Below are positions 2,995-18,559 of a DNA stretch of 25,069 bases, piece by piece. The DNA comes from a virus: positions 1 through 25,069 of the IMG/VR virus record IMGVR_UViG_3300042465_000905. One strand, given 5' to 3'. The notes under the pieces were generated by a model. The model searched no databases and had not been told where the DNA came from. It worked only from the letters and a program-made list of their open reading frames with translations. Position 1 is the stretch's first letter. Every line of letters begins with the position of its first letter. The position numbers were made by a program, and so were the translations under genes.

Positions 2995-4938
2995 ATGGCT
3001 CTTGTACTAAAAGACCGGGTAAAAGAAGGTACTACTACTAGTGGTACAGGTACTGTCGTCCTCAACGGGGCGGCTACTGGATACCAGTCTTTTGCCGTCA
3101 TTGGTAACGCCAACACTACGTACTACACTATTGCTGGTGGCAGTGACTACGAAGTCGGTATCGGCACGTACTATTCTGGCAATACATCTTTGTCCAGAGA
3201 TACTATTCTTGCGTCTAGCAATGCCAACGCCGCAGTAACTCTTTCGGGTACGTATGATGTATTTGTAACCTACCCTGCTGAGGTAGCTGTATATTTAGAT
3301 GGTGGCAATGCGGTATTTGCCAACGGCTCTTCTAATGTTACCTTTTCAGCAATTAATGTAAGCACCGCCACAATCAATACGGTTACGCTGACAAACGGCA
3401 CGATTAGCGCACAGCCAAACGCAGCTACCGATATTGTCAATAAGACCTATGTTGATGGTCTTGTGGCTTCGGGTATTCATTTCCACCAGCCAGTCCGAGT
3501 CGAATCTCCTACTGCCCTAGTTGCGGTATATAACCAGCCAAACGGTGCTGGTAATGGGGTAGGCGCTACCTTAACAAACAGTGGTGCAAACGTATCCCTT
3601 GTTGTTGACGGCGTATCTGTAGCAAACACCAACCGAGTTCTCATTTATACCCAATCAAATGCTGTACAAAACGGGGTGTATGTCGTTTCAGATATTGGTT
3701 CTAACGTAACCAGCTGGATCCTGACCCGCTCTGACGACACGAATACTTACGGATTAACCAGCCCAAACACCTTGGGTGAGGGTTCTACGTTCTTCGTTCA
3801 AGAGGGTGATACAGGCGCAGGCGAGACATATACCTGCAATACACCAGGCGTTATTACGTTTGGCACAAGCAATATTACGTTTACTCAGATTAGTTCAGCG
3901 CAGATTTATTCTGCAGGAACAGGCTTATCGCTTAATAACACCACATTTAGCATATCGAATACCGCAGTTACCGCTGGTACGTATGGTGATGCAGGAAACG
4001 TTTCGACTATTACAGTCAACGCCCAAGGTCAGTTAACTAACGCCGTAAATACAGCAATTGTTATTCCAAGCTCATCCGTTACTGGCTTGGGAACCATGGC
4101 ATTGCAGAATGCCACAACAGTCGCTATTACCGGCGGTTCAATCAACGGTACTCTAATTGGTAACGCAACAGCATCATCTGGCGCATTTACGACTTTATCG
4201 GCCTCTAGTAATGTCACCGGTGTAGGCTTTGCAAACTTCCTCAACGCTCCTCCGACTATCGGCGGGGTAACGGCAAACACAGGCGCATTTACCAGTCTTA
4301 GCGCATCAGGAACCCTAACCGCTTCAGCAAACGTAGTAATAAGCCAGCTAACAGGATTCCTGTACGGTAATAACACCAGCCCCGTAACGGCCAGCACGAC
4401 TATTCCAAGTTCAGCGGTGACTGGTTTTGGCACAATGGCAGAGCAAAACGCCAATAACGTAGCTATTACAGGCGGAGCGATTAACGGAACCCTGATTGGT
4501 AACTCTACCGCAGCGGCGATTACTGGTACTACGATTACCGCAAGCACAGTGTTTTCAGGATCAGGCGCTAGTCTTTCTGCCTTAAACGGCTCAAACATTA
4601 CCAGCGGAACAATTGCGGTTGGCGTAGGCGGCACAGGTATTGGAGCTTTGACCAACAATAATGTCATTCTAGGAAACGGCTCTAACGCTGTTAAGTTCGT
4701 AGCCCCAGGCACGGCTGGAAACGTATTGGTATCTGACGGCACTACATGGACATCAAACACGGCCCCATCGTCTGGCGCCTTGGCTGCAGGTAACAACTCA
4801 ATTATTATTAACAACGTGAACATTACGGCAAACGCTACAATTGCTGCGGGGCAAAACGGCTTCTCAGTAGGTCCAGTTACAACAGCAAACGGCGTATCGG
4901 TAACGGTTGCAAGCGGACAACAGTGGGTGGTGATATGA
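2995..4938 (+). CDS. Large modular tail fibre protein
   Basis: A 647-aa Ala/Asn/Thr/Ser-rich beta protein. Residues 1-100 are an N-terminal fibre-attachment module (MALVLKDRVKE, GSDYEVGIGTY, VFVTYPAE). Residues about 145-155 carry ATDIVNKTYVDG, a typical fibre joint. Residues about 160-300 are a beta domain of fibre type (NRVLIYTQ...NGVYVV, WILTRSDDTNTY). Residues 358-390 and 471-503 are two copies of a 33-residue tail-fibre repeat, and residues about 540-600 hold GGTGI...NNVILGNGSNAVKFVAPG...GNVLVSDG, a widespread fibre end module. AGGAG precedes the start. The stop TGA lies inside the ATGA that starts the next gene. It probably forms a trimeric receptor-binding or branching fibre. Confidence 0.8.
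   Translation: MALVLKDRVKEGTTTSGTGTVVLNGAATGYQSFAVIGNANTTYYTIAGGSDYEVGIGTYYSGNTSLSRDTILASSNANAAVTLSGTYDVFVTYPAEVAVYLDGGNAVFANGSSNVTFSAINVSTATINTVTLTNGTISAQPNAATDIVNKTYVDGLVASGIHFHQPVRVESPTALVAVYNQPNGAGNGVGATLTNSGANVSLVVDGVSVANTNRVLIYTQSNAVQNGVYVVSDIGSNVTSWILTRSDDTNTYGLTSPNTLGEGSTFFVQEGDTGAGETYTCNTPGVITFGTSNITFTQISSAQIYSAGTGLSLNNTTFSISNTAVTAGTYGDAGNVSTITVNAQGQLTNAVNTAIVIPSSSVTGLGTMALQNATTVAITGGSINGTLIGNATASSGAFTTLSASSNVTGVGFANFLNAPPTIGGVTANTGAFTSLSASGTLTASANVVISQLTGFLYGNNTSPVTASTTIPSSAVTGFGTMAEQNANNVAITGGAINGTLIGNSTAAAITGTTITASTVFSGSGASLSALNGSNITSGTIAVGVGGTGIGALTNNNVILGNGSNAVKFVAPGTAGNVLVSDGTTWTSNTAPSSGALAAGNNSIIINNVNITANATIAAGQNGFSVGPVTTANGVSVTVASGQQWVVI
4066..4503 (+). repeat. Two 33-residue tail-fibre repeats in the large fibre gene
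   Basis: The segments 4066-4164 and 4405-4503 encode two 33-residue units that agree at 27 positions, each centred on GTMA.QNA..VAITGG. They start exactly 339 nt (113 codons) apart. Third-position differences are frequent, so the units are old at DNA level while the protein pattern is kept. Such repeats are typical of trimeric phage fibre shafts. Confidence 0.75.
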
Positions 4939-5144
4939 GTACCATAACAGCAGGAAATACAGTAACTACAGCCATCACTATTACTGGTGATACGACTGGT
5001 AATTTAACGCTTTCTGCAAATGCCACTGGTACTGTTATTCTTACACGCCCATTACAATTTTCAGACGGAACAACACAAGCTACCGCAGCAGCAGTTTCTG
5101 GTGGTTTAAATGTAACGCTACAACAATCTTACGGAGGTTTTTAA
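4935..5144 (+). CDS. Small fibre-type protein carrying the DGTTQATA motif
   Basis: A 69-aa protein if started at the ATG at 4935, which overlaps the upstream TGA by ATGA. A GTG at 4923 in the same frame would add four residues but is less likely. The sequence is a short beta-rich fibre module (TITGDTTGNLTLSANATG) followed by LQFSDGTTQATAA, a motif often found at the heads of phage fibre proteins and repeated near the N-terminus of the adhesin encoded at 6973. It may be a stand-alone fibre adaptor or the remnant of a longer fibre. A GGAGG site inside its 3' end serves the next gene. Confidence 0.6.
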   Translation: MSTITAGNTVTTAITITGDTTGNLTLSANATGTVILTRPLQFSDGTTQATAAAVSGGLNVTLQQSYGGF

Positions 5145-5546
5145 ATGCCAGCAGGTACATCCCCAATTTTCCCGCAAGTGCCAAGTATTGGCATAGCCAG
5201 CCTTGTTTCTAATACAGCAGTCACTTCACGTTCAGTAATTGTTGGAACTACTGGTCTTACCCAATTAACCCCTAATTCAACAAACGGCACAAGAATTGAC
5301 TTTATTGAGGTTCAGGGTCAAGGAACTACTGTAGCAACAATTATTAACGTTTGGTTAAATGACGGTACTAACTCATACTTAGTTGAAGAGATTTCTTTGC
5401 CAGCAGCTACAGCCAATACAACGGTTGTTGCCTCAAGTAATACTATTGCTTTTACAAAGTTAACTCTTCCCCCCACTAATCGTTTGTTTGTGTCTCAGCA
5501 AGTATCGGCTAACGTAACCGTATTTGCATTTGGTGGAACCTACTAA
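5145..5546 (+). CDS. Beta-rich structural protein, probable virion component
   Basis: A 133-aa protein starting directly after the previous stop (TAA then ATG) with GGAGG upstream. Short beta strands alternate with Thr/Asn-rich turns (TRIDFIEVQGQGTTVATI, INVWLNDGTNSYLVEEI). The pattern resembles small phage surface or head/fibre decoration proteins commonly seen in aquatic phages, in which a strand-rich domain ends near a FVSQ...VTVFAFGG tail. No catalytic motif. Context in the fibre block supports a virion role. Confidence 0.62.
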   Translation: MPAGTSPIFPQVPSIGIASLVSNTAVTSRSVIVGTTGLTQLTPNSTNGTRIDFIEVQGQGTTVATIINVWLNDGTNSYLVEEISLPAATANTTVVASSNTIAFTKLTLPPTNRLFVSQQVSANVTVFAFGGTY

Positions 5547-5548
5547 AA

Positions 5549-6568
5549 ATGCCTTTCAATAAGTCATTCAAACAAGATGCCGTTATTACCCCACAAACGG
5601 GGATAACGGATCTTTCTCAATCTACTGGTGGATTAATTGTGCCTACAGGCAATACCGCACAACGCCCTACCAATGCAGTAGCAGGGACTTTTAGATATAA
5701 CAATCAAACTAATCAAACTGAAGTTTATTCAGGTCTTTCTTGGATAGCTATTACTTCTCAAATTTATGCTATAGATTACATAATAGTAGCTGGTGGTGGT
5801 TCTGGTGGTTTTTCCAGTGGATATGAAAAAGGCGGTGGCGGTGGTGCAGGTGGTTACCTAACCGCATCTTCAGTTAGTGTTACGGGCGGGACTGCATACA
5901 CAATTACCGTAGGCGCAGGGGGCGCTCAACCAGCAAGCGCTGGGCAAGGTAGCCCAGGAAGCAACTCTTCAATATTGACAGTAAATACCGCAGTTGGTGG
6001 TGGACGAGGTGGATCTGGTAGCACCGCTGGTCAGGCTGGAGGTTCTGGCGGTGGAGGCTCTGCTTGGGCTCCTGGTGTTGTAGCTGGAGGCGCTGGAACC
6101 TCAGGTCAAGGTAGTGCTGGCGGTAATGGTGTTGCAGATGCTGGAAGCGGAACTGGAACAGGAGCTGGTGGTGGCGGTGGAAAAAGCTCTGTTGGTGGTA
6201 ACGCATCCCTTAACACGGGCGGAAACGGTGGAGCAGGATTAGCTGATACATGGACTGGTGGATCAAGAACTCTTGCTGGCGGTGGTGGTGGTGCTGGATC
6301 AACTGCTGGTTCAGGCGGAGCAGGTGGTGGTGGGGCTGGAGGGGCAGGCACTTCAGGCGCTGCAGGAACTGCAGGAACTGTTAATACAGGTGGTGGTGGA
6401 GGCGGTGGGACCTATGGCGAGCCTAGTGGAGGTGCTGGCGGCGCTGGTGGTTCTGGAATTGTAGTTATACGTTATCTTGGATCTCAAGCTGGAACTGGCG
6501 GTACAGTAACCTCATCAGGTGGTTATACAATTCATACTTTCACTTCTAGTGGAACTTATACGGCTTAA
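5549..6568 (+). CDS. Glycine-rich adhesin-like tail protein (paralogue 1)
   Basis: A 339-aa protein, first of five glycine-rich paralogues. Residues 30-67 are the AQRP module (PTGNTAQRP ... FRYNNQT ... EVYSGLSW). From residue 75 a YIIVAGGGSGG strand leads into about 225 residues of glycine runs broken by short variable loops. Residues 303-339 are the family's closing segment (GIVVIRY, GTGGTVTS, IHTFTSSGTYTA). Glycine-rich arrays of this type are known from phage adhesins such as gp38 of T-even phages, where the loops between polyglycine helices bind receptors; relatedness here is by design, not proven homology. It has the shortest N-terminal part of the five. Confidence 0.75.
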   Translation: MPFNKSFKQDAVITPQTGITDLSQSTGGLIVPTGNTAQRPTNAVAGTFRYNNQTNQTEVYSGLSWIAITSQIYAIDYIIVAGGGSGGFSSGYEKGGGGGAGGYLTASSVSVTGGTAYTITVGAGGAQPASAGQGSPGSNSSILTVNTAVGGGRGGSGSTAGQAGGSGGGGSAWAPGVVAGGAGTSGQGSAGGNGVADAGSGTGTGAGGGGGKSSVGGNASLNTGGNGGAGLADTWTGGSRTLAGGGGGAGSTAGSGGAGGGGAGGAGTSGAAGTAGTVNTGGGGGGGTYGEPSGGAGGAGGSGIVVIRYLGSQAGTGGTVTSSGGYTIHTFTSSGTYTA

Positions 6569-6582
6569 CAAAGGAGATTTAA

Positions 6583-6963
6583 ATGGGACATTTTGCCAAA
6601 ATTGTAGACGGTAAAGTAACGCAAGTTATCGTAGCCGAAAAAGAATTTTTTGATACATTTGTAGATAGCTCGCCAGGTCAATGGTTACGCACGTCTTATA
6701 ACATGCGTGGTGGCGTTCATTACGAGCCAAATAGCGATACGCCTAAAGCCGACCAATCACAAGCTCTGCGTAAGAACTATGCTGGTATAGGTTATTCGTA
6801 TGACCCAGTACGTGATGCGTTTATCCCACCACAACCGTTTAATTCATGGTTACTAGACGAGCAGACCTGCTTATGGAACGCCCCGACACCAATGCCAGCA
6901 GACGGCAAGGTTTACGAATGGGATGAGCCAACGGTATCGTGGAAAGAAGTAGTAGCCGCTTAA
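6583..6963 (+). CDS. Conserved 126-aa phage protein of cyanophage type
   Basis: A 126-aa protein beginning MGHFAKIVDGKVTQVIVAEKE. The pattern GQWLRTSYNMRGGVHY, then GIGYSYDPVRDAFIPPQPF, then SWLLDEQTCLWNAP and YEWDE matches a family I recognise as very widespread in marine T4-like cyanophages and pelagic phages, where it has no assigned function. AAAGGAG precedes the start. It interrupts the adhesin array, between paralogues 1 and 2, which hints at a role in fibre or adhesin assembly, but this is inference only. Soluble, with no signal peptide. Confidence 0.75.
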   Translation: MGHFAKIVDGKVTQVIVAEKEFFDTFVDSSPGQWLRTSYNMRGGVHYEPNSDTPKADQSQALRKNYAGIGYSYDPVRDAFIPPQPFNSWLLDEQTCLWNAPTPMPADGKVYEWDEPTVSWKEVVAA

Positions 6964-6972
6964 GGACTAAAA

Positions 6973-8187
6973 ATGACTGTAATAGTTAACGGCACCACAG
7001 GTATTACCTTCCCAGATAGCACAACACAAGCTACGGCAGGTGGGGGTGGGGGTGGTTTAACTTGGCAAGCCGTTGTTACGTCTAATACGACAGTCAGTTC
7101 TAGCAATGCTTACGCAGTTAGTACTGTTGCAGGCCCAGTTGTTGTAACTTTACCATCCAGTCCGGGCGCTGGTAATACAGTTCAGCTAACTGACTACGCT
7201 GGTACATGGGGCGCTAACACTGTAACACTTAATCGTAATGGCTCAAATATTGCAGGTGCTGCAGCGAATGTAACAATTAATACTAACGGTGCTTCTGTAG
7301 CTCTTGTATACATTGATGCTGCACGAGGATGGATTCCTTTTAATGGGTTTCCAACATCTCCAATTGGAACTTATTCTGCAAGTTATTTAGTAGTTGCAGG
7401 TGGTGGTGGTGGCGGTGGTGTAGGCATGTCTGATAACCCATCTGGAGCAGGTGGTGGAGCAGGTGGACTATTACAAAGTACAACAACCGTAGCCCCAGGA
7501 ACAGCGTATACAATTACCATAGGCGCTGGAGGTTCTGGCGCAAGTAGCCAATCAACATCTGGTGCCAATACATCGTTTTCATCGATTGCGGTTGCATCTG
7601 GAGGTGGTTTTGGAGGAGGGAAAAGTACATCTGCGTATTATTCTCCAGCTGCTGGTGGATCAGGTGGTGGCGGATCGTATAACTTTAATAGTGGTGCATC
7701 AGGAACTGTAGGTCAAGGTAATAGCGGAGGAAATGGAACCAACGCTTCCCCATACCCTTCAGGCGGTGGAGGAGGATCTGGTGGCGCAGGATTTAGCTTT
7801 TCTGGAAACAATGGTGGGAACGGTGGTAATTCAACTTCTAGCAGTATTTCTGGAGCTTCCGTAGCTTACGCTGGCGGCGGCGGTGGTGGCGGTGGATTTA
7901 ACGGAACTACTGGTTCTGGCGGTGGCGGTGGAGCTGGTAATGGTGGATCAATTATTGGTGTTGGCACTCCAACATCGGGTAGTGCAGCAACAGCAAATAC
8001 AGGGTCTGGCGGTGGCGGAGCTGGTAATAGCGGATCATCAACAGGAACAGCAAATGGTGGAAATGGTGGTTCGGGCGTAGTGATAATTTCTTATGTCGGC
8101 ACACAACGTGGTACAGGTGGCACAGTCACTTCTAGCGGCGGCAACACCATTCATACCTTTACATCATCTGGCACTTACACGGCGTAA
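6973..8187 (+). CDS. Glycine-rich adhesin-like tail protein (paralogue 2)
   Basis: A 404-aa protein with a different head from the other paralogues. Residues 1-22 carry NGTTGITFPDSTTQATA, the same motif type as the small protein at 4935. Residues about 30-125 are a fibre beta domain (VVVTLPSSPGAGNTVQLTDY, TVTLNRNGSNI, VALVYIDAARGW) known from cyanophage fibres. Residues about 136-365 are glycine-rich, opened by SYLVVAGGGGGGG and containing a YAGGGGGGGG core, and the protein ends with the shared IHTFTSSGTYTA tail. It lacks the AQRP module. A likely receptor-binding protein with a swapped attachment module. Confidence 0.76.
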   Translation: MTVIVNGTTGITFPDSTTQATAGGGGGGLTWQAVVTSNTTVSSSNAYAVSTVAGPVVVTLPSSPGAGNTVQLTDYAGTWGANTVTLNRNGSNIAGAAANVTINTNGASVALVYIDAARGWIPFNGFPTSPIGTYSASYLVVAGGGGGGGVGMSDNPSGAGGGAGGLLQSTTTVAPGTAYTITIGAGGSGASSQSTSGANTSFSSIAVASGGGFGGGKSTSAYYSPAAGGSGGGGSYNFNSGASGTVGQGNSGGNGTNASPYPSGGGGGSGGAGFSFSGNNGGNGGNSTSSSISGASVAYAGGGGGGGGFNGTTGSGGGGGAGNGGSIIGVGTPTSGSAATANTGSGGGGAGNSGSSTGTANGGNGGSGVVIISYVGTQRGTGGTVTSSGGNTIHTFTSSGTYTA

Positions 8188-8189
8188 CC

Positions 8190-8474
8190 ATGCCAAGCAC
8201 AATTAATGCACAGCCAGGAAATGCCTCAACAATTACAGCGCTTATTAAGTCTGGTGCTAGTGATGCTAACCTTGCATTTGAAACAAACGGTATTGATGCA
8301 ATAGTAATAAATGGCAGTCAAATGGCAAATTTTGTATCAACAGGCGCAGTAAGAGTGCCAGCAGGAACAACGGCGCAGCGTCCAAGTAGTCCTGTAAACG
8401 GTATGATGAGATATAACACAACCACTCTTAGAGTAGAGGGGTATGCAAACAATACTTGGGTAGCTTTTTTATGA
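8190..8474 (+). CDS. Orphan N-terminal AQRP module protein
   Basis: A 94-aa protein that is only the head module of the adhesins. Residues 25-55 (FETNGIDAIVINGSQMANF) and 56-93 (VPAGTTAQRP, MMRYNTTT, YANNTWVAF) align closely with the first 90 residues of the next gene's product. The glycine-rich domain is absent. It ends GCT TTT TTA TGA, and the TGA overlaps the next gene's ATG (ATGA). It could be a stand-alone adaptor, a truncated paralogue, or the N-terminal part of a fusion made by a -1 frameshift at the run of T just before the stop. Confidence 0.68.
   Translation: MPSTINAQPGNASTITALIKSGASDANLAFETNGIDAIVINGSQMANFVSTGAVRVPAGTTAQRPSSPVNGMMRYNTTTLRVEGYANNTWVAFL
8465..8471 (+). promoter_or_regulatory. 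Candidate -1 frameshift slippery site T TTT TTA
   Basis: In the reading frame of the 94-aa gene the bases read GCT TTT TTA TGA, which contains the heptamer T TTT TTA in the frame needed for tandem -1 slippage, directly followed by the stop. A -1 shift enters the frame of the next adhesin gene just before its ATG, giving a fusion of about 534 aa. A 5-bp hairpin (CCAGC TCT GCTGG, 8490-8502) lies 18 nt downstream, farther than usual for a stimulator. Ordinary stop-restart at ATGA is the simpler explanation. Confidence 0.3.
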
Positions 8475-9793
8475 CAGTCAGAATAAATGCCAGCTCTGCT
8501 GGGCTAACCGAAACAGTCGATACAACTGGAATCCTTGAATTTCAAACTGCCAACACGTCTGCGCTCATTATTAACGCATCACAAAATGCTAACTTTACTT
8601 CTACTGGGGCTATTACTGTACCTGTAGGGACTACAGCTCAAAGACCTACCGCCACAAACGGCATGATCCGTTACAGCACAACAAACAACGCTTTTGAATA
8701 TTATGTAAATGGTGTTTGGGCTTTAGCAAACGTGACCCCGCCCCCCACAAATACCGTGGCCCCTGTAATATCCGGGTCTGCAGTAGTTGGGGCAAATTTA
8801 ACATCAACCACAGGAACGTGGAATTTTTCTCCAACGTCTTTTGCATACCAATGGTTTGCAAATACTACGGCTATTTCTGCTAATGCAACGGCTAATGTAT
8901 TTACTATTACAGCAACGGAGAATGGCGCAAACTTATATTGCAACGTAACGGCAATTAACGCTGCAGGAAATAGCACACCAGCCAAATCAAATACTGTTGG
9001 CCCAGTAACAAGTTCTTATGATGTTTCTTATTTAGCCGTTGCGGGCGGTGGTGGTGGAACTTATTATGTTGGTGGCGGTGGTGGAGGTGGGGGTTTATTG
9101 GCTAACACAACAGCACTTGGTATAGGATCCGTATATACAGTTACGGTAGGCGGTGGCGGTGCTGGCGGTTCAAGTGGCTCTAATGGTACAAATTCATCGG
9201 TAATAGGAACTGGAGTTTCAATAACTGCTATTGGTGGTGGTGGCACAAGCGCATTTGGTGTTGGTAAAAGTGGTGGTTCTGGCGGTGGCGGATCATTAAA
9301 TGCTACAGCTGGCGGTGCAGGAACTTCAGGCCAAGGTAATGCTGGAGGTAGTTCAAATGCTTCAGGTACACAATCTGCTGGCGGTGGTGGCGGTGCCGGT
9401 GGCGGTGGTGGAGGTGGTAGTAACGGTGCCGCTGGAAATGGTGGATCAGGAGCAGCATCGTCTATTACTGGCTCTAGCATAACCTACGCTGGTGGCGGTG
9501 GCGGTGGACATCAAGCTGGAACTGCTGGTTCAGGTGGTGCCGGTGGCGGCGGTTCAGGAACAAATAATGGTTCAACAGGGGGATCTGGAGGAACTAACCT
9601 TGGCGGTGGTGGAGGTGGTGGTGGTAACAACAACATAGATCAAGGTCAAGGTGGCCCAGGAGGTTCAGGCGTAGTTATTCTTTCTATTCCCACAGCAAGT
9701 TACTCAAACGTAACTACAGGCAGCCCAACAGTAACAACATCTGGCAGCAATACTATTCTTAAATACACATCTAGCGGTTCTTACACAGCCTAA
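8471..9793 (+). CDS. Glycine-rich adhesin-like tail protein with Ig-like domain (paralogue 3)
   Basis: A 440-aa protein if started at ATG 8471, chosen because it overlaps the upstream TGA as ATGA; a TTG at 8456 in frame is weaker. Residues 1-48 and the AQRP module at 50-86 mirror the 94-aa protein upstream. Residues about 96-180 form an Ig-like domain (VAPVISGSAVVGANLTSTTG, then YQWFANTTAI, ENGANLYCNVTAINAAGNS). Residues 186-395 are glycine-rich, opened by SYLAVAGGGGG. The end (ILKYTSSGSYTA) is a variant of the shared closing segment. It is the only paralogue here with an Ig-like insertion, which in phages usually adds weak surface or carbohydrate binding. Confidence 0.76.
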   Translation: MTVRINASSAGLTETVDTTGILEFQTANTSALIINASQNANFTSTGAITVPVGTTAQRPTATNGMIRYSTTNNAFEYYVNGVWALANVTPPPTNTVAPVISGSAVVGANLTSTTGTWNFSPTSFAYQWFANTTAISANATANVFTITATENGANLYCNVTAINAAGNSTPAKSNTVGPVTSSYDVSYLAVAGGGGGTYYVGGGGGGGGLLANTTALGIGSVYTVTVGGGGAGGSSGSNGTNSSVIGTGVSITAIGGGGTSAFGVGKSGGSGGGGSLNATAGGAGTSGQGNAGGSSNASGTQSAGGGGGAGGGGGGGSNGAAGNGGSGAASSITGSSITYAGGGGGGHQAGTAGSGGAGGGGSGTNNGSTGGSGGTNLGGGGGGGGNNNIDQGQGGPGGSGVVILSIPTASYSNVTTGSPTVTTSGSNTILKYTSSGSYTA

Positions 9794-9795
9794 TC

Positions 9796-10491
9796 ATGCT
9801 AGGTTTTACACCATTCGCATCCGCCCCGTTTTCTGACTTAGGCTCAGGGAATGCCGAGGTATTTCTTACTGGCGTAACTGGGGTAGGGCAGACTGGTGTT
9901 TTAGACGCAACTGGCACCGCCAATGTATTCCTAGTAGGCGTTCAAGCCGTAGGTCAAGTCGGTACGGTAGAAGCTCAAGCAGATGCCAACGTATTCGTAA
10001 CAGGTGTTCAGGCGGTAGGGCAGCTTGGAACGGCTGATGCAACAGGAACAGCCAACGTTAATTTGGTTGGTGTAGCGGCTATTGGGCAGGTTGGAACTGT
10101 AGATGTATCAGCTAACGCAAACGTTTACCTAGAAGGGGTTACAGGATATACTCAGCTAGGTACGGCCAATGCTACAGGCGGCGCAGATGTAGTTGTCTCA
10201 GGAGTGACTGCGGTAGGTGAAGTTGGTACTGTTCAGGTAGATGCTAGTGCCAATGCTCTTGTAACAGGTGTTACTGCAGTCGGTCAGGTAGGTACAGTAG
10301 CAGTTACAGCAAACGCAAACGTATTTTTGGTTGGCGTACAGGCAGTGGGCATAGTAGGACAGGTGCTTGTTTGGGGTCAAATACCAGACAATCAGACACC
10401 GGATTGGACAAATATTAATGACAACAGCAGCACTGGATGGACGCAAGTTGTTGATAATGCAGAAGAAAATTGGGACTTAATAGCGGCTTAA
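9796..10491 (+). CDS. Virion protein made of eight 22-residue repeats
   Basis: A 231-aa protein. Residues 1-20 are a short leader (GFTPFASAPFSDLGSGNA). Residues 21-196 are eight consecutive repeats of exactly 22 residues with consensus NVFLVGVQAVGQVGTVEA.A.A, with no insertions or deletions. Residues 197-231 form a Trp-containing tail (PDWTNIND, TGWTQVVDNAEENWDLIA). The regular alternation of hydrophobic residues and glycines suggests a beta-solenoid or stacked beta-hairpin. Similar repeat proteins with the same W-rich tail occur in uncultured aquatic phages (from memory), usually called structural. Position among adhesin genes suggests a fibre shaft or spacer. Confidence 0.72.
   Translation: MLGFTPFASAPFSDLGSGNAEVFLTGVTGVGQTGVLDATGTANVFLVGVQAVGQVGTVEAQADANVFVTGVQAVGQLGTADATGTANVNLVGVAAIGQVGTVDVSANANVYLEGVTGYTQLGTANATGGADVVVSGVTAVGEVGTVQVDASANALVTGVTAVGQVGTVAVTANANVFLVGVQAVGIVGQVLVWGQIPDNQTPDWTNINDNSSTGWTQVVDNAEENWDLIAA
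9856..10383 (+). repeat. Eight in-frame 66-bp repeats
   Basis: Eight units of 66 nt encode the 22-residue repeat of the surrounding gene. All units have identical length, yet their DNA differs at many third positions, so this is not a recent slippage array. Unit 8 has a degenerate end (GIVGQVLVWGQI) that leads into the C-terminal tail. Confidence 0.8.
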
Positions 10492-10492
10492 T

Positions 10493-11941
10493 ATGGCAAG
10501 TACATACTCTCCCTCGCTTAGAATACAGCTAATTGAAACAGACACCGAGTTTGAGGCTTGGGGTCAGCCGCTTGATAACAACCTAGGCACCGTTATTGAG
10601 CAGGCAATTGTTGGGTCAAACACCATTAGCCTGACAAACCTCACATCTTTAACTCTTTCTACTGCTAACGCTGCGGTAGACCAAGCCCGTAATGCCGTAT
10701 TAGTATTTGATGGCGCTCTTACCGCAAACTGCAATGTCGTAGCCCCCAGCGTCAAAAAAGTATACGTAGTTAGCAATAAGACTTCTGGTGGCTATCTAGT
10801 CAACATCAAGACTTCCAGTGGTAATGCCGTCAACGTTATTAATGGCACAAATCAGCTTGTTTATTGTGACGGTACAGATTTTAAGACCGCAGTCAATGTC
10901 AACACCATCATCGGCGACTTAGCGGTTTCCGGAAATGCCACTGTTAATGGAAGCGTAACGATTGGTGGGAATATTAGTGGTCCAAATAACCTTACCTCTA
11001 CAAGCGGTAACATCACCACAACATCAAACTCTTCTATTGTTGTGCTTAGCAATAATACTGGCGCTTTTGTTCTTCCAACAGGCAACACAGCGCAACGCCC
11101 TTCTACAGTAAAACTAGGTATGCAACGTTGGAATAATGAACTTAACTGGGTTGAAGTGTGGAATGGCATTGTTTGGTACCCATTGACAGGTAGTTACGGC
11201 GTTCAATACGTAGTTGTAGCTGGTGGTGGAGGTGGTGGTTTTGAATCTTTTCAAGGTTCAGGCGGTGGCGGTGCTGGAGGCATACTTATTGGTGGAACTA
11301 CCGTTCAAGCCAGCACTGCATACACAGTAACAATAGGCGGCGGTGCAGCGGTCAATGCCAAAGGAAGCAATACGTTTGCGCTTGGTTTTACTGCTTTAGG
11401 TGGTGGGTCTGGTGCCGGTAATAGCAACTCTGGAATTATTAATGGCGGTTCTGGGGGTGGTCGATGCACCCGTGATAATCCTGCTGAAAACTTCGGCCCA
11501 GGATCAGGCACAACAGGTCAAGGTAATAATGGTAGCTCTGGAATTTCTGGGTATGTAGGTGCCGGCGGCGGAGGTGGTGGACAATTGCCTACTGGAACTG
11601 CTGGGGGTAACGGTTTGTCTTCCTCTATTACTGGTACGTTAGCCTACTATGCAGGCGGCGGTGGTGGTGGTAATCGTCAAGTTGGTTCTGGTGGATCTGG
11701 CGGCTTAGGTGGTGGAGGGTTTAATAACACGGCTGGTACAGCAAATACAGGCGGTGGCGGTGCAGGTGGGGGGTCTGACCCTGGAGCTTTTACAGGAACT
11801 GCTGGTGGCTCTGGAGTAACTATTATTTCTTACGCAAGCCCAGTGCAAACAGCTACAGGCGGAACCGTAACTTCTTATACATCTGGAGGCACACTCTATT
11901 GGGTGCATACATTTACAACTAGCGGTACATTTACGGCTTAA
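10493..11941 (+). CDS. Glycine-rich adhesin-like tail protein (paralogue 4)
   Basis: A 482-aa protein. Residues 1-145 are a fibre N-terminal module frequent in aquatic phages (MASTYSPSLRIQLIE, WGQPLDNNLGTVIEQAI, QARNAVLVFDG, LVYCDGTDFKTAV). Residues 145-190 are a Thr/Asn/Ser-rich linker (LAVSGNATVNGSVTIGGN). Residues 194-231 are the AQRP module. Residues 241-440 are glycine-rich with a YYAGGGGGG core, and the end is WVHTFTTSGTFTA. It shares its whole architecture with the next gene, so the two are tandem paralogues. Likely receptor-binding fibre. Confidence 0.78.
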   Translation: MASTYSPSLRIQLIETDTEFEAWGQPLDNNLGTVIEQAIVGSNTISLTNLTSLTLSTANAAVDQARNAVLVFDGALTANCNVVAPSVKKVYVVSNKTSGGYLVNIKTSSGNAVNVINGTNQLVYCDGTDFKTAVNVNTIIGDLAVSGNATVNGSVTIGGNISGPNNLTSTSGNITTTSNSSIVVLSNNTGAFVLPTGNTAQRPSTVKLGMQRWNNELNWVEVWNGIVWYPLTGSYGVQYVVVAGGGGGGFESFQGSGGGGAGGILIGGTTVQASTAYTVTIGGGAAVNAKGSNTFALGFTALGGGSGAGNSNSGIINGGSGGGRCTRDNPAENFGPGSGTTGQGNNGSSGISGYVGAGGGGGGQLPTGTAGGNGLSSSITGTLAYYAGGGGGGNRQVGSGGSGGLGGGGFNNTAGTANTGGGGAGGGSDPGAFTGTAGGSGVTIISYASPVQTATGGTVTSYTSGGTLYWVHTFTTSGTFTA

Positions 11942-11953
11942 CAGGACTTAACT

Positions 11954-13426
11954 ATGCCATCAACTTATTCTCCCTCGTTAAAAATAGAATTGATCGGTAA
12001 CGGCGAACAGTCGGGTACTTGGGGTCAAACTACAAACAACAATATGGGTACGCTTATTGAGCAAGCGATTGCTGGCGTTGAACCAATTACCTTAACTGGC
12101 AATAAAACACTTACTAGTTTTAACGGTTTATCAGACGAAGCACGTAACGCCGTTTTAGTTTTTGGCGGATCTTTGGCATCCCCAGCAAACGTTATTGCCC
12201 CATCTACTCAAAAGACTTACATTATTACCAACAATGCTGGCGCTAACGTTACAGTAAAGACTGCTAGCGGTAATGGAGTAGTTATTGGTAACGGACTTAG
12301 CTCTTTAATTTACTGTGATGGCACTGACTTCTATACCGCAGTAAACGTAAACAACGTAATTGGCAACCTATCCGTATCTGGCAACGCAACAATTGCTGGC
12401 TCTGTAACCACAGGCGCTAATTTAACTTTTGCTAACACCGTTGTTAATACTTTAGGTAATCTTACCTTTACTGCCAACTCTGGGATTGTGGATATGTCGC
12501 CCAATACAGGCGCATTAGTCCCTCCAACTGGTACGACCGCACAACGTCCAGCTACCCCACGAGTTGGTATGAGCCGCTGGAATTCTGATACTGGTGCATA
12601 CGAAGTTTGGACTGGTGTTGAATGGAAACAGTTGGCGTCTGGTACTTATTCTATTGATTACATTATCGTAGCTGGTGGTGGTACTAGCGGTTTTGGAACT
12701 TCTTGGGCAGGCGTTTCTGGTGGCGGTGCTGGTGGTCTTTTATCCGCTGCATCTTATGGAGGTATTACACCTGGAAACTCTTACTCAATTGTAGTTGGTG
12801 CAGGCGGCGCTGGTGGTGGTTCTTTTGCCCAAAATGGCAGTAATTCGTCAGCCTTCGGCCAAACTTCTATTGGTGGTGGTTCTGGCGGTGGCGGTAACGG
12901 TGGTTCCGGCGGAGGCGGTGGTTTCTTACAAGGTGGTCAAGGAACTGTTGGACAAGGAAATAATGGTGGCTGGTCTAGCCCAACTGCAGATTATGGTTCT
13001 GGTGGTGGTGGAGGTGCTGGAGCTGCTGGTGGAAATGGCGTGCAAACTGCTGGGGGGAATGGACTTCAATTTGATATTACTGGCACGTCAACTTACTATG
13101 CTGGCGGAGGTGGTTGCGGATCAGGAGAAGATACAGGTACTTCTGCTCCTGGCGGTTTAGGCGGTGGCGGTGCAAGTGGAGTAGCTTTTGCAAGAACAGG
13201 CCAAAGTGGAACTGCAAATACTGGAGGTGGTGGTGGTGGAACTAATATTCTTTCAAACGACCAATACCCACCAGGCGTTGTATCTAGCGGCGGTTCTGGT
13301 GTAGTTATTATTCGTTATGCTTCTGCTACGCAACGCGGATCAGGCGGTACCGTAACAACCTATACATCTGGCGCAGTTACATACTGGGTTCATAAATTTA
13401 ATTCTTCAGGAACATACGTAGCATGA
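11954..13426 (+). CDS. Glycine-rich adhesin-like tail protein (paralogue 5)
   Basis: A 490-aa protein, tandem paralogue of the upstream one. Residues 1-140 are the same N-terminal module (MPSTYSPSLKIELIGNGEQS, TWGQTTNNNMGTLIEQAIAG, DEARNAVLVFGG). The AQRP module is at 189-227 (PPTGTTAQRPATP, MSRWNSDT, YEVWTGVEW). Residues about 237-455 are glycine-rich, opened by YIIVAGGGTSG, with YYAGGGGCG in the core, where one glycine of the run is replaced by Cys. It ends WVHKFNSSGTYVA. AGGA lies before the ATG; the TGA stop overlaps the next start as ATGA. Likely receptor-binding fibre with different loop sequences from its twin. Confidence 0.78.
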   Translation: MPSTYSPSLKIELIGNGEQSGTWGQTTNNNMGTLIEQAIAGVEPITLTGNKTLTSFNGLSDEARNAVLVFGGSLASPANVIAPSTQKTYIITNNAGANVTVKTASGNGVVIGNGLSSLIYCDGTDFYTAVNVNNVIGNLSVSGNATIAGSVTTGANLTFANTVVNTLGNLTFTANSGIVDMSPNTGALVPPTGTTAQRPATPRVGMSRWNSDTGAYEVWTGVEWKQLASGTYSIDYIIVAGGGTSGFGTSWAGVSGGGAGGLLSAASYGGITPGNSYSIVVGAGGAGGGSFAQNGSNSSAFGQTSIGGGSGGGGNGGSGGGGGFLQGGQGTVGQGNNGGWSSPTADYGSGGGGGAGAAGGNGVQTAGGNGLQFDITGTSTYYAGGGGCGSGEDTGTSAPGGLGGGGASGVAFARTGQSGTANTGGGGGGTNILSNDQYPPGVVSSGGSGVVIIRYASATQRGSGGTVTTYTSGAVTYWVHKFNSSGTYVA

Positions 13427-17872: not shown

Positions 17873-18559
17873 ATGGCTAACGCTATAAACCTTACTACTA
17901 CAATAGTTCCGTCAAAGGCGCCTAACTTACCGATTGCGCCTGTAGACTACAGCCAGCAATATCAAGATCAATTTAGTAACGTTCTCCGTTTATATTTTAA
18001 TCAGATCGACAATGACTGGGCAGCGGTGCTTGGCCCTAACGGTGGTAAATACACACGGTTTCCCCATATATCTGCGTTTGATTCAACCAGCCAATACGCA
18101 TTAGCTAACACAACAACTACCGTTTTATGGAGTACATTAGTAAGCGGATCAGGGTTTACCCTTAATGCAAATAGTACTGCAACATGCGAAATAGCTGGTG
18201 TATATAAGATTGACTACAGCCTTCAGTTTGCTAATACCGACAACGCTATCCATGATGCTGATGTTTGGTTAAAAGTAAACGGAACTAATGTTCCGGATTC
18301 GGCTACTAGGTTTACGCTTCAAGCTAGAAAAAGCGCAAGTTTATTTAATTACGTTTGCGGCTACTCTCATGTCACTTTTGAAATAGCTGCTGGAGACGTA
18401 ATTTCTTTAGTTTGGGCGTCAGATAAAGTCGCCACTGCTAATGCGTCATCGGATGGATTATTCATAGAAGCACTCCCAGCATCTGCAAGCCCGTATGACC
18501 GCCCCGCAATTCCTTCTGCCATAGGCACAATAGCCTTTGTATCTGCACCAACAACATGA
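17873..18559 (+). CDS. Jelly-roll-like fibre or decoration protein
   Basis: A 228-aa protein starting immediately after the nozzle stop. Residues 1-60 are an attachment region (VPSKAPNLPIAPVDYSQQYQ, RLYFNQIDNDW). Residues about 80-200 resemble a C1q/TNF-type jelly roll found at phage fibre tips and surface proteins (ATCEIAGVYKIDYSLQFANT, VWLKVNGTNVPDSATRF, SHVTFEIAAGDVISLVW). The C-terminus is Ala/Pro-rich. Such domains usually trimerise. It may be a fibre bound to the nozzle, or a head decoration. Fold call is by sequence pattern only. Confidence 0.68.
   Translation: MANAINLTTTIVPSKAPNLPIAPVDYSQQYQDQFSNVLRLYFNQIDNDWAAVLGPNGGKYTRFPHISAFDSTSQYALANTTTTVLWSTLVSGSGFTLNANSTATCEIAGVYKIDYSLQFANTDNAIHDADVWLKVNGTNVPDSATRFTLQARKSASLFNYVCGYSHVTFEIAAGDVISLVWASDKVATANASSDGLFIEALPASASPYDRPAIPSAIGTIAFVSAPTT

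Follow-up and report, generated by a model that had tools for sequence, protein, structure and literature searches.

A probable set of slot-specific scaffolds with exchangeable glycine-rich tips in the tail-fibre region of an uncultured short-tailed phage

Five neighbouring genes of a short-tailed phage encode what we take, with a probability of roughly 80%, to be conserved scaffolds, each specific to its slot in the array and each bearing a glycine-rich tip that can be exchanged and that belongs to the Pam3 gp24 / polyglycine class. Comparison with related phages shows that the scaffolds are inherited with the slot, whereas the glycine-rich heads are not. The DNA analysed here (the window) is a virus sequence of 25,069 bases, probably a fragment, and its source is an uncultured and probably aquatic bacterial virus, the habitat being suggested only by cultured relatives (Pelagibacter, Roseobacter, and cyanobacterial phages). 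A megablast of the window found no close cultured phage at the DNA level, and a scan of bacterial genomes with gene w24 matched only two metagenome bins, from which no host is claimed.

To judge from gene order and domain matches, the array lies among the tail-fibre genes of a short-tailed phage. On one side the fibre region is bounded by two SU10-type adaptor genes and on the other by a P22 gp10/nozzle-like gene, so that adaptor and nozzle genes both lie alongside the array, as in a tail-fibre location, and phage SU10 has an equal set of parts, comprising adaptor, long and short fibres, and nozzle (PMC9509320). The features of the region are as follows.

42-971: SU10-type adaptor gene (Pfam SU10_adaptor, E 2e-10)
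1844-2536: SU10-type adaptor gene (Pfam SU10_adaptor, E 8.5e-22)
2995 to 13426: run of fibre-like genes, wider than the five-gene array
2995-4938: gene w07, matching a head-decoration PHROG
5549-5752, + strand: gene 1 scaffold, short N-terminus and AQRP module (repeat D12), 74% amino-acid identity to its nearest neighbour, the L172 slot
5753-6568, + strand: gene 1 glycine-rich head, tail type I (PF21722 E=2.9e-20; AlphaFold pLDDT 91.2; PDB and BFVD matches)
6583-6963, + strand: phrog_7759 protein (E=1e-30), candidate chaperone or partner in head assembly
6973-7359, + strand: gene 2 scaffold, DGTTQATA and fibre beta domain (phrog_31104, 972, 958)
7360-8187, + strand: gene 2 glycine-rich head, tail type I (PF21722 E=5.5e-18)
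8190-8474, + strand: headless AQRP gene, sharing 4 nt with the start of gene 3
8471-8734, + strand: gene 3 scaffold, AQRP, 72-75% in relatives
8735-9004, + strand: gene 3 Ig-like domain (phrog_26223 E=5e-15)
9005-9793, + strand: gene 3 glycine-rich head, tail type II (PF21722 E=5.6e-12)
9796-10491, + strand: repeat-rich protein, presumed fibre component, 85% in L172
10493-11182, + strand: gene 4 scaffold, YSPSL/WGQ module (10493-11047) and AQRP, 77% to the L172 slot
11183-11941, + strand: gene 4 glycine-rich head, tail type III (PF21722 E=6.5e-15)
11954-12634, + strand: gene 5 scaffold, YSPSL/WGQ module (11954-12502) and AQRP, 81% to the L172 slot
12635-13426, + strand: gene 5 glycine-rich head, tail type III (PF21722 E=5.1e-16)
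15186: endolysin gene
15713: P22 gp10/nozzle-like gene, annotated in relatives as stabilization protein

Several other features of this region deserve mention in their own right. That two distinct genes match SU10_adaptor suggests duplicated or split adaptor roles. The w07 product has 647 aa in the window and 646 aa in the closest relative, L172, but L094, L095, and L199 have a version of only 154 aa; about 490 internal residues are dispensable or variable among relatives. Downstream, the gene at 17873-18559, which is shortened in L013 and L174, has a weak match to BclA_C (C1q/TNF-like) and is a further receptor-binding candidate. The record holds no S74 chaperone end, and promoters and terminators in the window are at about chance level.

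The original prediction, made from the DNA alone, described five glycine-rich adhesin paralogues with a shared head, a common end, and four N-terminal designs. Intact open reading frames do begin at all five predicted starts (5549-6568, 6973-8187, 8471-9793, 10493-11941, and 11954-13426), and the N-terminal designs were correctly read as AQRP, DGTTQATA with a fibre beta domain, AQRP with an Ig-like domain, and, twice, YSPSL/WGQ with AQRP. The common head is borne out by matches of all five proteins to PF21722 (Gly_rich_2), above the curated cut-off of 24.3 bits (46.6-73.7 bits, E 5.6e-12 to 2.9e-20), and to phrog_2295 (E <=2.1e-32). The shared head end is homologous in all five; it is not a single end, falling instead into three types: I, '..GGTVTSSGGxTIHTFTSSGTYTA'; II, '..TTGSPTVTTSGSNTILxFTSSGSYTA'; and III, '..GGTVTSYTSGGxxYWVHTFxxSG'.

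An alignment of 82 sequences and its conservation profile show a C-terminal glycine-rich head in which conserved glycine motifs are separated by variable segments, the arrangement of a Pam3 gp24-type tip adhesin. The AlphaFold2 model of gene 1, built from 82 sequences, has a mean pLDDT of 91.2. Its head gave many strong matches in BFVD to phage 'glycine-rich domain' proteins (E down to 7.6e-27). The best fold match in the PDB was the tail tip of mycobacteriophage Bxb1 (9d93; E 1e-3, probability 0.99-1.00), and the Pam3 fibre 7ypx_A matched with a probability of 1.00, E 0.021, and TM 0.35; no PDB fold match fell below E 0.001, and TM-scores were low (0.31-0.35). The glycine-rich domains of ALK/LTK came next in the PDB fold search (E 2.7-7.5), a sequence profile separately picked the ALK homologue 7LIR (E 0.0064), and 7LIR is reported as structurally similar in the Pam3 paper (PMC9608196); these lines agree, each one weak alone. 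Matches to CBA120 TSP3/TSP4, which bear on the question of a branching XD domain, spanned only 43-51 residues at 2.1-3.8 Å (E 0.5-8). A PDB sequence search with a five-sequence profile returned no match and deeper profiles only weak ones, whilst AQRP matches to tubulin were rejected as chance. A tblastn search of phages with gene 1 was also without a match, which is not evidence of absence because BLAST masks low-complexity glycine sequence.

We also considered that the glycine-rich proteins might decorate the virion or act as environmental adhesins, on the capsid or tail surface, rather than being tips that bind host receptors. The adjoining w07, with its head-decoration match, would suit such a role, as would the Ig-like domain of gene 3, since Ig-like domains are also found on capsid decorations. 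Against this, the genes sit between the adaptor and nozzle genes, the fold matches of the head are tail-tip proteins, and YSPSL scaffold homologues are annotated as tail fibre or tail protein in the cultured phages HTVC023P, CRP-901, and MinM2. We therefore regard a purely decorative or environmental function as unlikely.

Support for slot-specific scaffolds with exchangeable heads came from eight relatives that share the overall order of scaffolds and spacer genes. In L172, the genes corresponding to those at 1844 and 15713 are 95% and 97% identical at the amino-acid level; in that phage slot 2 holds an AQRP rather than a DGTTQATA scaffold, slot 3 is without the Ig-like domain, and slot 4 is without a head. 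The DGTTQATA scaffold of gene 2 is 87% identical to that in the L095 slot. The Ig-like domain of gene 3 is present in L175, L178, and L199 and absent from L172, L095, and L176. L013/L095 and L173 have three YSPSL genes against two in the window, slot 3 of L013 has two tandem heads, and in relatives the YSPSL scaffold is joined to many unrelated C-termini; the repeat-rich gene precedes a YSPSL gene in most of the relatives listed. The headless AQRP gene is 75-77% identical in L172, L095, and L175, where it also lacks a head, and its counterpart bears one in L174 and L176. Two contigs from one metagenome (3300034061), L012 and L094, are similar to L172 in the sequence flanking the array at both ends, and the assembly may have broken at the array.

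Slot inheritance was measured in nine phages with positionally defined slots, by finding the nearest neighbour of each scaffold and head in the other phages and shuffling slot labels within phages; head boundaries were profile envelopes. Scaffolds had their nearest neighbour in their own slot in 38 of 44 cases, as against 8.9±3.5 expected, a value reached in 0 of 1000 shuffles. The corresponding figure for heads was 10 of 42, against 8.6±2.9 expected and reached in 373 of 1000 shuffles, which is an absence of signal that, taken alone, would also fit saturation. Raw head identity (54.9% for same-slot and 53.8% for different-slot pairs) was discarded as evidence for swapping, as glycine alone gives a floor near 54%, and the nearest-neighbour and DNA-block tests were used instead. 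At the DNA level, homology between the window and L172 runs at 77-88% along the scaffolds and neighbouring genes, stops near the scaffold/head junctions inside genes (window positions 5702, 8680, 10965, and 12550), and restarts near gene ends (6515, 9767, and 13289). Tail types I and II have traded slots 1 and 3 between these two phages.

The clean transfers were observed in relatives rather than in the window genome; when the heads of the window were searched for elsewhere, none had a close relative at the DNA level. One head is identical at 613 of 620 bases in L212 and L230, with identities of only 56.6% upstream and 73.8% downstream, in the gene end. The two contigs come from different metagenomes, and their nozzle genes are 57% and 22% identical to that of the window. 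Each of the two has a sister that shares its scaffold and bears another head: L345 has 99.3% amino-acid identity in the scaffold and 67.6% in the head, and L352 has 84.3% and 66.0%, the second head of L230 being kept at 96.1%. On this evidence a head can pass, nearly by itself, from one phage to another that is otherwise unrelated, a chimeric assembly being a possible artefact. Adjoining heads of L230 (IMGVR 3300028025_003386) match two phages, L212 (94.9% DNA) and L352 (92.7%). Other discrete changes include an extra tandem head that L210 has and L213 lacks, with flanks 88% identical, and, in L259/L262, a scaffold replaced with the head kept at 99%.

These blocks bear on the idea that heads were never exchanged and instead diverged in place, through point changes and slippage of glycine repeats, too fast for any slot signal to survive. 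Glycine repeats are indeed prone to slippage, and heads from the same slot are hardly closer to each other than heads from different slots, as saturation would give. Divergence in place does not, however, account for a head-only block 98.9% identical in DNA between unrelated phages whose sisters bear other heads, nor for discrete loss of a head, tandem gain of another, gain or loss of the Ig-like domain, and replacement of a scaffold. Heads also remain conserved along with their flanks at >=96% identity, and they are under purifying selection: pairwise dN/dS is 0.11-0.38, with no sign of diversifying selection when averaged over heads. We consider divergence in place quite improbable.

The pace of turnover was gauged by counting flank-anchored heads over 179 contig groups, a head being scored as 'replaced' when no alignment covered 80% of it; pairs share contigs, so the counts are descriptive, and below ~80% flank identity plain divergence contributes. 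Heads kept and replaced numbered 19 and 0 at flank identities of 99-100%, 1 and 0 at 96-99%, 5 and 4 at 93-96%, 1 and 0 at 90-93%, 4 and 16 at 86-90%, 5 and 16 at 82-86%, 5 and 18 at 78-82%, and 9 and 43 at 74-78%. Thus all 20 heads were kept at >=96%, and between 82 and 90% 9 were kept and 32 replaced. The case that would have counted against the original prediction, namely relatives that share all five genes and show no recombination, is accordingly found only at about 96% DNA identity or above, and the pattern breaks down below that. The prediction had also looked to near-identical genomes for variation in the array, and that comparison revealed none: L226 and L227, which come from two different metagenome assemblies, agree at 99.9% over a 16.1-kb stretch that contains the array, which speaks against quick switching.

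The same data weigh on an internal switch, in which a genome would store several heads and alter which of them is expressed, whether by inversion, by retroelement mutagenesis, or by gene conversion. Several heads of the same type do lie side by side, and other phages have scaffold-poor heads, with fewer than 30 residues before the head in 60 of 324 head ORFs. These last, in L210, L213, L346, L354, and others, are almost stand-alone tips. In the window, on the other hand, each of the five heads belongs to an intact ORF with a recognisable scaffold, and no orphan or silent head was found. Gene conversion among the window paralogues was rejected, as no two of the genes share an exact DNA match longer than 22 nt; misassembly between them is unlikely for the same reason. 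Only short, imperfect inverted repeats were found in the 25-kb fragment, rather than an invertible cassette of the Mu/P1 type. Neither an invertase nor the reverse transcriptase of a diversity-generating retroelement was matched among the scanned window genes (all except three of <90 aa, at 1399, 1584, and 4923), the record being a fragment to which an invertase could be distant. An internal switch seems to us very unlikely. Of the earlier proposal, then, modular swapping stands, on the slot test, the DNA breakpoints, and the L212/L230 block, and the cassette reservoir inside one genome does not; the data favour phage-to-phage exchange on an evolutionary timescale over shuffling of a genome's own stock. 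Joint display for broad binding, the other use that had been proposed, would be compatible with five intact genes.

The protein encoded between genes 1 and 2 may be a partner of the tips. In 68 of 80 related loci, among them one on a 335-kb contig, a head gene lies within 150 nt of its phrog_7759 homologue; as the loci were fetched by the phrog_7759 gene, this count characterises the surroundings of that gene, not the frequency with which head genes are accompanied by it. The protein has no Pfam match. Its model (pLDDT 93.8) has as best fold match the Pam3 fibre entry, chain 7ypx_a, at a non-significant E of 0.69. We hypothesise that it acts as a folding or assembly chaperone of the tips.

Five head genes is a high number, and not a unique one, for arrays of two to seven recur in other phages. 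Of 108 contig groups with heads, 52 carry a single head gene, 29 carry two, 12 carry three, 8 carry four, and 7 carry five to seven; truncation of the loci makes these counts lower bounds, and the sampling followed the genes of the window array. Contigs L281, L255, and L243 (335, 93, and 59 kb) have 5, 7, and 7 glycine-head genes, respectively, with a phrog_7759 neighbour. On another contig, L402 (3300033076_000334), genes for a fucosyltransferase-like protein, a family 2 glycosyltransferase, and a radical SAM protein lie at 4254-9043, near replication genes.

Parts of this arrangement have precedents. One is gp24/gp25 of myocyanophage Pam3 (7ypx, 7yfw; PMC9608196), whose fibre ends in a TNF-like and a glycine-rich domain, the latter with a conserved stem and a variable tip proposed to bind receptors, and whose chaperone gene, gp25, lies beside the fibre gene as the phrog_7759 gene does here. 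Pam3 nevertheless has one fibre, a contractile tail, and a helical N-terminus rather than AQRP or YSPSL, and the fold matches to it are weak (E 0.02 for the head). In gp38 of Salmonella phage S16 and the T-even phages, glycine-rich motifs likewise alternate with variable segments at the fibre tip, but S16 gp38 is a separate protein with a three-layer lattice docked on gp37, and no sequence or fold match to it was obtained. The Bxb1 tail-tip brush, the best PDB fold match, comes from a mycobacterial phage in which the domain sits in the tail tip rather than in a row of fibre genes. Ackermannviridae also have several receptor-binding genes with conserved 5' ends at one locus, which are proposed to recombine and whose head domains exchange as in the array (PMC11414711); theirs, however, are four tailspikes in a branched complex with XD domains, as opposed to five tips of the same class on different scaffolds. 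Alteromonas phages A5 and V22 share a fibre and cognate chaperone that are common to unrelated phages (PMC10579305), yet there a whole multi-gene module moved, compared with only about 620 nt of head here. In the metaviromic islands of marine phages, host-recognition genes, three of them gp38-type adhesins, vary within a conserved genome, especially in their C-terminal parts (PMC3909814), although that work rests on read recruitment, without slot/head analysis or polarised exchange.

We propose that phages infecting the same cell would exchange heads by homologous or homeologous recombination, with the conserved edges of the head, AQRP/YxxxYLVVAGGG at its start and GGSGxVII..TSSGTY at its end, as the putative recombination sites. 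The tips would bind host surface receptors, the five slots could give one phage several specificities, and the adjoining phrog_7759 protein may aid folding or assembly of the tips. A bolder version, which we put forward tentatively and hold to be possible rather than probable, is that five or more tips are displayed at once, that the sockets are standard plugs into a pool of heads held by unrelated phages, and that host range shifts slot by slot through import of single heads.

Polyglycine tips and domain exchange via conserved 5' ends were both known, and here they are combined in a multi-slot arrangement. Earlier descriptions of receptor-binding domain exchange have usually concerned phages with one fibre gene or a few different ones. 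Parallel slots carrying a single class of head allow inheritance of the socket to be separated from that of the tip, and make the rate of tip turnover visible. The system would permit a direct test, in uncultured phages, of whether host range is broadened by several displayed tips or by import of a single one.
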